Shown: positions 40,044 to 43,906 of the stretch, one piece after another
Layout: every line of letters begins with the position of its first letter
How positions within the stretch are numbered: the first letter of the stretch is position 1
Origin: Streptomyces alanosinicus
Lineage (GTDB): Bacteria; Actinomycetota; Actinomycetes; Streptomycetales; Streptomycetaceae
Assembly: GCF_014650595.1 (NCBI RefSeq)
Contig: NZ_BMVG01000005.1
Span: 186,001-250,000 of the forward strand
Length of the DNA stretch: 64,000 bases
Reading direction: 5' to 3'
Notes under the pieces: generated by a model
The model's database searches: none
What the model saw: only the letters and a program-made list of their open reading frames with translations
Told to the model about the DNA's origin: nothing
Position numbers and translations under genes: made by a program

Positions 40044-40227
40044 CGCCGGTGCCCCTCGAAGCGTTTCTGCGGGCCCGGTTCGAGGAGTTCGAGGAGGAGG
40101 AACAGGTGGCCCGTGACGCGATCGCCGGTGCGACCCGGCCCGGGTGCTGCGCGAACTCCAGGCAGTGCCCCTGCTCGCCGTCCCGTTCGCCGGCCGTCCC
40201 GGGTACGACGACTCCTGGCGTCCTTAG
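40040..40227 (+). pseudogene. Truncated, frameshifted DUF6221-like gene
   Basis: It begins MTPVPLEAFLRARFEEFEEE, the DUF6221 start, with GATRPG soon after. The continuation expected in the family (RVLRELQAVPLLAVPFAGRP, then YDDSWRP) is in the next frame and ends with TAG at 40225-40227. A deletion and a one-base shift near 40140 therefore break it. A product read in the first frame would continue to a stop at 40270 with unrelated sequence. Its end overlaps the convergent helicase gene. Confidence 0.6.
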
Positions 40228-42647
40228 GCCGGAGAGGCCGGAGACGCCGGAGAAGTACGGTCGTCGCTGACTTCGGCGGGTTCGGCGTCGGTCGCGGAGC
40301 CGCCGGCGAAGCCCAGGCGGGTCTGTTCCTCCGCGACGATGAGGCGGGCCAGTGCCGTGTCCGACACGTCGAGGGCGTCCGGGGTCGCCTCCGCCATCGC
40401 GCTGCGGCGCGCGTACCGGTCGAACAGCCGGGCCTTCCGCTTCAGCATGGTCACCATCTGCTCGTCGACGCCGCCCGGAGCCAGCAGACGGTGCACCCGG
40501 ACCGGCCGCACCTGGCCCATGCGGTGGGCCCGTGCCACCGCCTGCTGTTCGATGGTCGGCTTGATCTGGGGCTCGCAGATGATCACGACGGAGGCGGCCT
40601 GGAGGTTGAGTCCGACGCCCGCCGCCAGGATCTGCGCCAGCAGCACCGCCGGACCGGAGACGGCCGCGAACTCGTCGACGAGCGCTTGGCGCCGCTCGGG
40701 CGACACGCTTCCGGTGAGCGGTCCGATCACCCGGCCGCCGGTCCGCGGCCCGGCGCCGAGGGCGTCCCGGACCACGCCGAGGACATCGCGGAAGGTGGAG
40801 AACACCACCACCTTCAGCCCGTTCTCGCCCGCCTCGTGCACGATCTCGCGGAGCCGGACCAGCTTGGCGGACTTCTCCGGGCGGGCGTACGCGGCCCTGC
40901 GCATCGCCATGAAGTTCCCGGAGAGCACTGCCTCGCGATACGCCTCCTCGTCCGAGGCGCTCGGTTCCTCCCACTCGTCCGTCTGCTGCAGGGCGGGCAG
41001 TTCGGCGAGCACGTCCACCTGGTTGCGGCGCAGGTAGACGGGCGCGACCGCGGTGCGGAAGGCCACGGAGCCGGGCAGTCCGGCCTGGTCGCCGACGCGG
41101 TCCGCCACGGCCTGGTCGAGCATCCGGACCAGGTTGCGGAACTCGGCCACCCGGTTCTCCATCGGCGTGCCCGTCATGAACAGGACCCGTTCGCATGTCG
41201 CGGCCCACCGGGTGACGGCCTGGGAACGCAGGGTCTTGGGGTTCTTCACGGCGTGCGCCTCGTCGACGACCAGCATCCCGATCTCTCCGCCGCCCGGGAC
41301 CGGGAATCCGCGCAGCGCGTCGAACGTCGTCACGGCGACGCCGCCCCGTCCCTTCCAGTACGCGAACGCTTCGTGCCGGTCCGGTCCGTGCAGGGGCGTG
41401 ACGTGGAGCGAGGTGCGCCCCTCGATCTCCCGCGTCCAGTTCACCAGGACGCTCGCCGGGCAGACGACCATGAAGTGGCTCTGCCCCTCGGCGGCCAGAT
41501 GGGTCAGCGCGGCCATGGCCTGCACGGTCTTGCCGAGCCCCATCTCGTCGCCGAGGATCACCCGGCGCTGCGTCAGGGCGAAGCGCGCGCCGAACGCCTG
41601 ATAGCCGCGCAGCGACACCCGTAGCCGGGAGTCGTCGAGCCGCTGGCCCCGCACCCGCTCGGCGATGCCCTCGGGCAGGAACCCCTCGGCGGCGGCCGTG
41701 TCCGGAGCGCGCCCGGAGATCTCGGCGAGCAGACCGTAGTACTCGGCGGAGCGCAGTTCGAAGTCCACCCAGGCGGCTAGTGCCCCGGCAGGCAACGTTT
41801 GCCCGTCAAGGAGCGGCGTCCGGTGCGTGCTCTGGGGGTCCCCCGGCCGGAGGCTGGGGGAGTGCCGGCCGGAAGTCCTCGTCCTGGGCGTACGTGGGCT
41901 TTCGGCCGGTGCGGCGAGAGGGCGTGCCGGGCGTCGCGACGGGGCGAACGTTGCCTGCCGGGGCACTAGGTCGGTGGACGGCCCGCGCAGCAGGTCCACC
42001 GACGCCTGGGCGAGCGCCTCGGCGGTGCCGGCCTGCTCCGCCTCGGCCACCAGCGCGCGCATCTCCTCGACCGCCGTCAGCGCGCGGGCCTTCCTGGCCT
42101 GCCCGGCCATCAGCATGCCCAGGCGACCGGCGGCGGGCCGGGCGTCGTCCAGCAGGGGGCCGAGCCGCCCGGTCAGCGCGCCGGCCGCCTCGACGGCGCG
42201 GCGCGCCCCGGGCCCCGCCTCGACGAGCACGTGCAGGGCCATGACGAGCGCGGTGGTCCGCGGCTCCGGACGGTCGACGTCGATGTGTACGGCGGTGCTC
42301 TCGTGCACGGCCTCGGACAGCTGCCGGGCGGCCGCGACGATCTGGTCCGCGGTCCGCTCGCCCACTCCCGGTATCTGCCGCAACCGGTACGGACCGGCGT
42401 CGAGTACCTGCCGGACCGTGCGCAGTCCGCTCCTGTCGACGCCGCCCAGCCGCAGCCGCCCGCCGGTGGCGTCCTGGAGGCGTGCCACCGGTATGGCGTC
42501 GAGCGCCTGCTCCACCGCCGCGTCCTGGATCGGCTTCAGCGCCGCTCGTACCGCCTCGACGGCCTTGCCATGGTCGCCGGCCAGCGACCGCGCCGCCTCA
42601 TGCAGCCGCGCCGCCCGCGCGACCGTCTCCCGCTCCCTGCGCCCCAT
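40224..42647 (-). CDS. SNF2-family DNA helicase/translocase with N-terminal HhH motif
   Basis: An 807-aa ATPase. A helix-hairpin-helix (LRQIPGVGERTADQIVAAA) lies near residues 89-107. Motor lobe 1 has Walker A GDEMGLGKTVQ (Lys at about 373), DEAH at about 461-464 and TGTPMENR. Lobe 2 has LKVVVFSTFRDVLGVVRDAL, and motif VI reads QQAVARAHRMGQVRPVRVHR. Residues about 228-290 are encoded by an in-frame inserted MITE-like element and are Pro/Arg/Ser-rich. The uninterrupted protein would be about 744 aa. ATG 42647 has GAGGGAGGG upstream. It probably remodels DNA-protein complexes; no specific pathway is indicated. Confidence 0.88.
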   Translation of the reverse strand: MGRRERETVARAARLHEAARSLAGDHGKAVEAVRAALKPIQDAAVEQALDAIPVARLQDATGGRLRLGGVDRSGLRTVRQVLDAGPYRLRQIPGVGERTADQIVAAARQLSEAVHESTAVHIDVDRPEPRTTALVMALHVLVEAGPGARRAVEAAGALTGRLGPLLDDARPAAGRLGMLMAGQARKARALTAVEEMRALVAEAEQAGTAEALAQASVDLLRGPSTDLVPRQATFAPSRRPARPLAAPAESPRTPRTRTSGRHSPSLRPGDPQSTHRTPLLDGQTLPAGALAAWVDFELRSAEYYGLLAEISGRAPDTAAAEGFLPEGIAERVRGQRLDDSRLRVSLRGYQAFGARFALTQRRVILGDEMGLGKTVQAMAALTHLAAEGQSHFMVVCPASVLVNWTREIEGRTSLHVTPLHGPDRHEAFAYWKGRGGVAVTTFDALRGFPVPGGGEIGMLVVDEAHAVKNPKTLRSQAVTRWAATCERVLFMTGTPMENRVAEFRNLVRMLDQAVADRVGDQAGLPGSVAFRTAVAPVYLRRNQVDVLAELPALQQTDEWEEPSASDEEAYREAVLSGNFMAMRRAAYARPEKSAKLVRLREIVHEAGENGLKVVVFSTFRDVLGVVRDALGAGPRTGGRVIGPLTGSVSPERRQALVDEFAAVSGPAVLLAQILAAGVGLNLQAASVVIICEPQIKPTIEQQAVARAHRMGQVRPVRVHRLLAPGGVDEQMVTMLKRKARLFDRYARRSAMAEATPDALDVSDTALARLIVAEEQTRLGFAGGSATDAEPAEVSDDRTSPASPASPA
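41777..41969. mobile_element. MITE-like element B inserted in frame in the SNF2 helicase gene
   Basis: CTAGTGCCCCGGCAGGCAAC at 41777 faces GTTGCCTGCCGGGGCACTAG at 41950-41969. The arms extend to about 31 bases with one substitution and one indel. The distance between the two CTAG copies is 189 bases, exactly 63 codons, and the helicase frame stays open throughout. The interior has GGGGGTCCCCC and GGCTGGGGGAGTGC blocks, the latter also found (inverted) in element A. Confidence 0.88.
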
Positions 42648-42826
42648 CCGCCCTCCCTCGCGCCACATCCTCGCATCGCGAGGGACGGACGCGGGGCGGA
42701 CCCGGAGCACGTACGGCCGGGCGGGGAGCGGACCGGGTGCGGCACGAACGCGTGGGCCCGGTGCCGGCGGGGCCGCGGATGCCGTCCCGTCAGGAGGGGG
42801 CCGCCGGCGCGGCTGTGCGGTCGTAC

Positions 42827-43906
42827 TCAGACCGACCGGTGGTACTGGTCCGGCACGTTGACCTCGCCGCCCAGCTCGCGGGCCGCGTGCCGGGCCCAGG
42901 AGGGGTTGCGCAGCAGCTCGCGGCCCAGCAGTACGGCGTCGGCCTCACCGTTGGCGAGGATCTTCGCCGCCTGCTCCGCCTCGGTGATCAGTCCCACCGC
43001 GGCGACGGGCAGCGGGGTCTCCGCCTTCACCCGGGCGGCGAACGGCACCTGGTAGCCGGGCCCGGTCGGGATGGTCGCGCCGGAGACGTTGCCGCCGGTG
43101 GAGACGTCGAGCAGGTCGACGCCGTGGGCGTGCAGATCGCGGGCGAAGCGGACCGTGTCGTCCGCGGTCCAGCCGCCGTCCTGGAGCCAGTCGGTGGCCG
43201 AGATACGGAAGAACACCGGCTTCTCTTCGGGCCACACCGCGCGTACGGCGTCCACGACCTCCAGGGCGAACCGGGTGCGGTTCTCGTACGAGCCGCCGTA
43301 GGCGTCGGTGCGCTGGTTGGAGTACGGGGAGAGGAACTCGTTGATCAGATAGCCGTGGGCGCCGTGGACCTCGGCGACGTCGAAGCCGGCGGCGAGCGCC
43401 CGGCGCGCCGCGTCGGCGAACTGGCCGACGATCTCCTGGATCTGATCCACCGTCAACTCGGTCGGCACGGGGTGGCGTTCGTCGAAGGACACGGCGCTCG
43501 GGGCGACCGGCTGCCAGCCGTGTGCCTCCGGTCCGACCGGGGCGCCGCCCCTCCAGGGCTGGTCGGTCGACGCCTTGCGCCCGCCGTGCGCCAGCTGGAT
43601 CGCCGGCACCACGCCCTGGGCGGTGAGGAAGCGGGTGATCCGGCGGAAGGCCTCCACCTGGGTGTCGTTCCACAGGCCGAGGTCGTAGGGGGAGATCCGG
43701 CCCTCCGGTGAGACCGCGGTGGCCTCCACGATGATCAGGCCGGTGCCGCCCGTGGCGCGCGCCCCGTAGTGCGCGAGGTGCCAGTCGTGCGGGACACCGG
43801 CGAGCGGCCCCTCCGGCTCGGCCGAGTACTGGCACATCGGGGGCATCCACACCCGGTTCGGGATGGTCACTTCGCGCAGGGTGATGGGCTCGAAGAGCGC
43901 GCTCAC
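42827..43906 (-). CDS. Old-yellow-enzyme family NADPH:flavin oxidoreductase (YqjM/NamA type)
   Basis: A 359-aa FMN enzyme. It starts MSALFEPITLREVTIPNRVW, with MPPMCQYSAEPEG, whose Cys at about 25 is the redox-sensing residue of YqjM-type ene-reductases. Other blocks are QLAHGGRKAS, EVHGAHGYLINEFLSPYSNQ, RTDAYGGSYENRTRF and VLLGRELLRNP. Such enzymes reduce activated C=C bonds of enals, enones or nitro compounds and respond to electrophile stress. It is divergent from an ArsR-type regulator, with a palindromic site between, so it is likely the regulator's target. Confidence 0.93.
   Translation of the reverse strand: MSALFEPITLREVTIPNRVWMPPMCQYSAEPEGPLAGVPHDWHLAHYGARATGGTGLIIVEATAVSPEGRISPYDLGLWNDTQVEAFRRITRFLTAQGVVPAIQLAHGGRKASTDQPWRGGAPVGPEAHGWQPVAPSAVSFDERHPVPTELTVDQIQEIVGQFADAARRALAAGFDVAEVHGAHGYLINEFLSPYSNQRTDAYGGSYENRTRFALEVVDAVRAVWPEEKPVFFRISATDWLQDGGWTADDTVRFARDLHAHGVDLLDVSTGGNVSGATIPTGPGYQVPFAARVKAETPLPVAAVGLITEAEQAAKILANGEADAVLLGRELLRNPSWARHAARELGGEVNVPDQYHRSV

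Follow-up and report, generated by a model that had tools for sequence, protein, structure and literature searches.

What kinds of mobile DNA are known to become part of bacterial proteins? Rickettsia palindromic elements (RPEs) are described as short palindromic mobile repeats of ~150 bp that contain an open frame and lie in frame in many unrelated genes, giving a similar peptide (PMC10969869, PMC2229807), and an RPE-bearing guanylate kinase is reported to be active, with an altered substrate affinity (PMC2229807). The latter source also presents ERIC/IRU, a 107-bp Neisseria element and a 168-bp Yersinia repeat as MITEs with an open frame and some in-frame host fusions. As to the mode of insertion, IS630-family elements are stated to insert at TA and to duplicate it (PMC2170065).

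The locus studied here lies in a 64,000-nucleotide stretch of a Streptomyces alanosinicus contig (NZ_BMVG01000005.1; this whole stretch is referred to as the window), in which a MITE sits in frame in the gene of a SNF2-family helicase. Like an RPE, this element is a mobile repeat that recurs in frame in proteins unrelated to one another and gives them a similar peptide, and with ERIC/IRU and the Neisseria and Yersinia repeats the element shares an open frame and some in-frame fusions. However, these likenesses are of description: RPEs have another host and sequence, the other elements belong to Enterobacteria and Neisseria and have other sequences, and the Streptomyces element has IS630-matching ends, a CTAG target and copies that mostly lie outside genes, many of them at TAG stop codons. 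With IS630/Tc1-mariner insertion sequences it has the ends and the TA (CTAG) target in common, but it is 193 bp long and carries no transposase gene. In-frame MITE fusions are already known as a kind, and the Streptomyces family is a new instance; among the titles and abstract openings listed by a literature search, none describes the Streptomyces element.

The element in the SNF2 gene and its empty site

An earlier note, made from the letters of the window alone, had described two CTAG-ended inverted repeats exactly 189 bases apart inside a SNF2 helicase gene, with a frame that stays open for 63 codons and flanks that rejoin once the insert is removed. This description was borne out: the CTAGs have their first bases at 41777 and 41966, the ends (CTAGTGCCCCGGCAGGCAACGTT) form perfect terminal inverted repeats identical at 23/23 positions, and scripted removal of 189 bases from the minus-strand frame, which is open across the added codons, restores ...STDL-AAWVD... 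(Table 1). The 63 inserted residues are composed of Pro (19%), Arg (16%), Ala (13%), Thr (11%), Leu (10%) and Ser (10%), among others.

Table 1. Coordinates of the element, its parts and its host gene within the window
Feature	Position	Strand	Remarks
SNF2-family helicase gene carrying the element	40224..42647	-	open frame; HHH_5, SNF2-rel_dom, Helicase_C
MITE copy	41777..41969	.	193 bp, net gain 189 bp; empty site in 29/29 homologues
Left terminal inverted repeat	41777..41799	+	23 bp
Right terminal inverted repeat	41947..41969	-	23 bp
TA of left CTAG, presumed target duplication	41778..41779	.	presumed from the 189-bp net gain and IS630-family behaviour (PMC2170065)
TA of right CTAG, other presumed target duplication	41967..41968	.	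presumed from the 189-bp net gain and IS630-family behaviour (PMC2170065)
C5 run	41840..41844	+	C6 in the other long own copies (own-copy alignment); C6 would shift the frame
Sub-repeat of ~25 bp, approximate edges	41834..41860	+	present in long copies, absent from 169-bp copies

Both the SNF2-related (PF00176, E = 1e-28) and the helicase C-terminal domain (PF00271, E = 1.5e-12) are present in the host gene, whose frame is also open from a GTG further upstream (42710), a possible longer start. Pfam places HHH_5 at residues 74–109 and the SNF2 domain at 350–589, with the insert at ~229–291, in agreement with its earlier placement between an N-terminal HhH part and the motor; matches to solved relatives of the protein start at residue 319 or later (best 60 of 83 listed). 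At the insert place, homologues have a short variable stretch (PSSD, PATD, PPSD or PESE) flanked by two conserved blocks, which makes it plausible that a linker is tolerated there.

The 681 N-terminal bases of the gene were searched against 295 genomes of the genus, 285 of which matched, many of them weakly, and the homologues of the best 29 relatives were compared at the insert site. All 29 are exactly 63 residues shorter and have an empty site, among them the best relative, G243, which aligns without the insert and with an intact frame. The insertion therefore took place after the lineages of the window and of G243 had separated, and the 29/29 empty sites support an insertion specific to the window lineage. 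At the empty site, the relatives read CTC, GTC or ATC plus GCC and not CTAG, the ancestral CTAG being one that we infer. Two further genomes, G146 and G255, are closer than G243 at some other loci, yet are uninformative on the insertion because the place is deleted in both; the breakpoint in G255 lies near the element's place, with no trace of the element there.

A single long hairpin (-118 kcal/mol, z -8.4) is the predicted fold of the element as single-stranded RNA, and a structure of such stability might hinder translation; in copies located at stop codons, it could have an effect on message ends. A reading of the element as a structured RNA family was rejected, given that Rfam returned no match at E ≤ 1 within positions 41000–43000 of the window.

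The copy family and its IS630 parentage

Is the element one of a family? In the S. alanosinicus genome (10.24 Mb, 177 contigs), a 206-base query gave 67 matches, with full-length repeats 95–98% identical, and the 21-base end with up to three mismatches was found 17 times in forward and 19 times in reverse orientation (36 in total) versus 1 + 1 for a reversed control pattern. Twenty regions were fetched: two-ended copies were present in 15, a single end in four and no end in one. Counting the window copy, there are thus 16 two-ended copies, which are 194 bp (eight copies), 195 bp, 193 bp (the window copy), 169 bp (three copies), 107 bp, 75 bp and 68 bp long and have CTAG at both ends without exception. 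Short (68–195 bp), multi-copy and free of a transposase gene, the family is of the MITE type that the earlier note had named. That note had also listed what would speak against it, namely relatives that all carry the segment and a lack of similar repeats elsewhere, and the findings are the opposite on both counts.

Next to the lone ends (L085, L087 and L088), no adjoining transposase gene was seen in the stretches read, although one of them, L087, lies near a split IS630 copy on contig C50. The genome also harbours a second MITE family (L089–L101, e.g., L089 at ~740–970) with different ends (CTAGGGCGTGTTGCGAAAGTCCCG), whose 13 copies have ~125 bp of interior in common with the window element at 88–92% identity, including the sub-repeat missing from the 169-bp copies; two MITE families have probably come to hold one interior by recombination. 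Copies of the window element (L117, L122 and L211) are common to G146 and Streptomyces sp. IMTB 2501.

As to the parent transposon, GTDB contigs scanned with the end gave at least 108 stretches, those listed all being titled Streptomyces. In one of them, L180, the 23-bp MITE end precedes the gene of a 395-aa IS630-family transposase, which matches NF033545 above the cut-off as well as Pfam DDE_3, and behind the gene the other end, correctly oriented, is matched over 14 inner bases and no further. Close relatives of this transposase (L222–L251) have a related end, e.g., CTAGTGCCGCATCAGGCAACGTT, with at most six mismatches of 23 at 30/30 loci—within 250 bases of the gene match in 25 and in both orientations in 22 of the 30—and more distant IS630 transposase loci (L216–L221) have such an end in 0/6 cases. 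Few loci of this set look like clean parent elements: the ends lie 1150–1350 bp apart at only two of the 30 loci (L222, 1237 bp; L249, 1235 bp), with L222 being a clean 1237-bp element whose left end differs from the MITE end at four positions. The IS630 argument is carried by L180 and L222, where the MITE and an IS630-family transposase gene have terminal inverted repeats in common. A duplicated TA within CTAG is in line with the CTAG at either end of all 16 own copies and with a gain of exactly 189 bp relative to the 29/29 empty sites; of the 79 two-ended copies among the GTDB matches listed, 53 have kept CTAG on either side. Tenzen and Ohtsubo (1991), going by the title, reportedly described a preference for TA in CTAG. 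We regard it as near certain that the element is a non-autonomous MITE of the IS630 type.

At most loci in L223–L251, one end adjoins the gene, with its counterpart hundreds of bases off, be it through cargo, decay or neighbouring copies. Two candidate parents were discarded: L206, with ends 1375 bp apart, consists of two short copies flanking other sequence with no recognisable transposase frame, and L140 is mostly N. The S. alanosinicus genome has a single close IS630 transposase gene, and this is interrupted by ~4.4 kb (L252; G000:C50:34500-41500) in which frames for a reverse transcriptase (RVT_1) and a maturase (GIIM) are found and which Rfam matches to a group II intron; splicing might restore the transposase message. 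The genome's more distant IS630 genes have 33–51% identity among the longer ones.

Landing sites and the shared peptide

Where do the copies land? According to gene calls by a simple, crude codon-usage gene finder trained on the window, ten of the 16 own copies sit on the TAG stop of a neighbouring gene, three in genes and three between genes; that they can land on such stops follows from CTAG containing TAG. The 53 CTAG-ended GTDB copies among the matches listed divide into 26 at stops, 23 between genes and four in genes, a count that leaves out 26 of the 79 distinct two-ended GTDB copies as lacking CTAG at both ends. For comparison, the same stretches (722 kb) contain 136 other CTAG sites, 30 of them at stops, which amounts to a stop-codon excess for the 53 listed copies (Fisher's exact test, P = 0.0006) and for the own 16 (P = 0.001). 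Since the gene finder is crude and the copies are related, this preference is only a lead. The in-gene share of the listed copies (4/53) does not differ from that of the CTAG sites (20/136; P = 0.23). Within the window, CTAG is very rare, with 13 sites outside the element ends versus ~160 expected from base composition, and four of these sites are the stops of predicted genes.

The element occurs in frame, and with a similar peptide, in several unrelated proteins. A 169-bp own copy (L078) adds 55 residues to a mannosidase, after a start that resembles a signal peptide and ahead of the GH92 domain; both sides of this site match in three of ten searched genomes (G146, G255 and G235), all three without the insert. 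Three of the four in-gene GTDB copies among the matches listed are open in frame—L129 at the end of a condensation domain and L150 inside one, each in an NRPS, and L198 between the domains of a molybdopterin oxidoreductase—and the fourth, L168, gains a stop. The peptide of 56 residues, used as query, finds matches (E ≤ 1e-8) in 79 of 392 genus genomes, S. alanosinicus among them. From such material, 47 copies were classified (L291–L337; many picked for long open frames, five overlapping the GTDB set), and six of them lie in predicted genes: the GH92 copy again, L327 (PKS), L306 (CbiX) and L297 (NAD_binding_9) are in frame, L311 and L324 are not. Having been found with the peptide itself as query, L297, L306 and L327 are uninformative on frame preference. 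The in-frame inserts are located between or beside Pfam domains, except for L150, and the in-frame copies found by DNA search are oriented alike in 5/5 cases, which is not significant (P = 0.06).

Both in-frame and gene-breaking insertions occur; one 194-bp own copy (L075, ~759-952; G000:C20:5758-5951) interrupts the gene of a MerR regulator and shifts its frame. In L327 (G101:C1:6624000-6629000), where the element spans ~2331-2499 within a PKS open frame of 3252 aa, both CTAG ends are lost (CCAG/CTGG) and the frame is open; judging by these lost ends, this copy is probably older, and L306 shows the same.

Selection on the peptide and the fate of the helicase

Has the peptide been put to use? 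Across 103 distinct copies of 150–240 bp, interior changes are spread evenly over the codon positions (50, 52 and 59), and in the frame used, 51 changes are synonymous versus 47.7 expected (P = 0.22), so that the significant synonymous excess of an exapted coding sequence was not found there. A coding sequence under selection was rejected for the other frames as well, the lowest P among all six being 0.09. Selection is not needed to explain why one frame recurs, because CTAG inside predicted genes mostly has the frame used by the in-frame copies (16/20). Selection for a length divisible by three was likewise rejected: 54 of the 79 GTDB copies among the matches listed have such a length, but 23 of them form one 169-bp class, and the pattern is mostly one of descent.

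The best overall explanation, which we would put at a probability of roughly 85%, is that an IS630-family (Tc1/mariner-type) MITE, presumably moved by an IS630 transposase acting in trans, inserted at a CTAG of the SNF2 gene, with duplication of the TA. Given a net gain divisible by three (189 bp) and a frame (CTA-GTG-CCC) free of stops, a helicase with 63 extra residues would be expected, in the form of a Pro/Arg-rich and probably unstructured loop between the HhH part and the motor. The segment is probably translated, and it is most likely neutral or nearly so, a tolerated passenger. Such tolerance is credible because the RPE-bearing guanylate kinase is reported as active (PMC2229807). The earlier note had spoken of a transposable element turned into protein sequence. 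The MITE, its frame and its lineage specificity stand, whereas domestication as a useful protein sequence is not supported, there being no codon-level selection on the element and a host gene that is broken or almost lost in relatives.

This last point lends some weight to a rival that we hold to be possible but doubtful, according to which the helicase gene is being lost in the clade, with the MITE among its first lesions and in frame by luck, and the protein unneeded or perhaps not made. In G146, the nearest relative encountered, the SNF2 gene is a pseudogene with stops and with residues ~46-458 gone (L274, 3848-5202), and in G255 only residues ~18-62 and 184-220 remain (L275, 2647-2990), with the neighbouring genes conserved in both; the SNF2 protein may therefore be dispensable in the clade. 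However, the window gene is otherwise intact. Its dN/dS relative to G243 is 0.28 (720 codons), and synonymous to amino-acid changes number 48:24 on the window branch, similar to 45:26 on that of G243. Since the split from G146 (385 codons), the ratio is 22:15 in the window line versus 17:26 plus one stop in G146 (Fisher's exact test, P = 0.08). The gene thus looks to have been under constraint until recently, with counts that span the time both before and after the insertion.

Alternatively, and compatible with a MITE as tolerated passenger, a 194-bp form may first have broken the frame by a net gain of 190 bp, to be repaired later by loss of a C in the homopolymer, a sequence of events that we treat as tentative. 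Among the ten long own copies, the window copy is the only one of 193 bp, having one C fewer in the C6 run; a 194-bp copy at the SNF2 site would cause a frameshift, as the 194-bp copy in the MerR gene does. Yet the six long copies in G146 measure 193, 200, 191, 195, 193 and 200 bp, and the two of 193 bp (L321 and L325) are both called intergenic, with L321 having the same short C run; a copy already 193 bp long may simply have jumped.

That the segment has acquired a use in the helicase, be it as linker or as regulatory loop, which its open frame and its position between domains would allow, is very unlikely in view of the absence of codon-level selection, the dispensability of the gene in relatives and the few differences from other copies, which leave little time to adapt. 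Least credible of all is an in-frame length caused by misassembly: the genome is a draft of 177 contigs with near-identical copies and the frame hangs on one homopolymer base, but the copy lies well within a 451-kb contig and is marked by a unique A-to-C change, and the short C run is present in another species too.

What does the finding mean for Streptomyces? If the stop-codon pattern holds, it suggests how the element persists in a gene-dense genome at low cost. Going further, and with little probability attached, the family might be a recurring donor of a ready-made disordered segment: the common form of 169 bp lengthens a gene by 165 bp, in frame and free of stops, and the CTAG target would direct it to TAG stops, where it is harmless, or to CTA-G leucine codons, where it is in frame, so that it would repeatedly lengthen host proteins, NRPS and PKS included, without breaking them, and occasionally change what they do. 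More immediately, backed by empty sites and by a parent transposon that can be traced, the family offers a clear case of mobile DNA adding a near-identical peptide to unrelated bacterial proteins and extends such peptide-adding elements beyond the previously known hosts. Its natural before-and-after pairs (SNF2, GH92, NRPS and PKS) make the effect of a sudden 55–63-residue insertion on an enzyme measurable.
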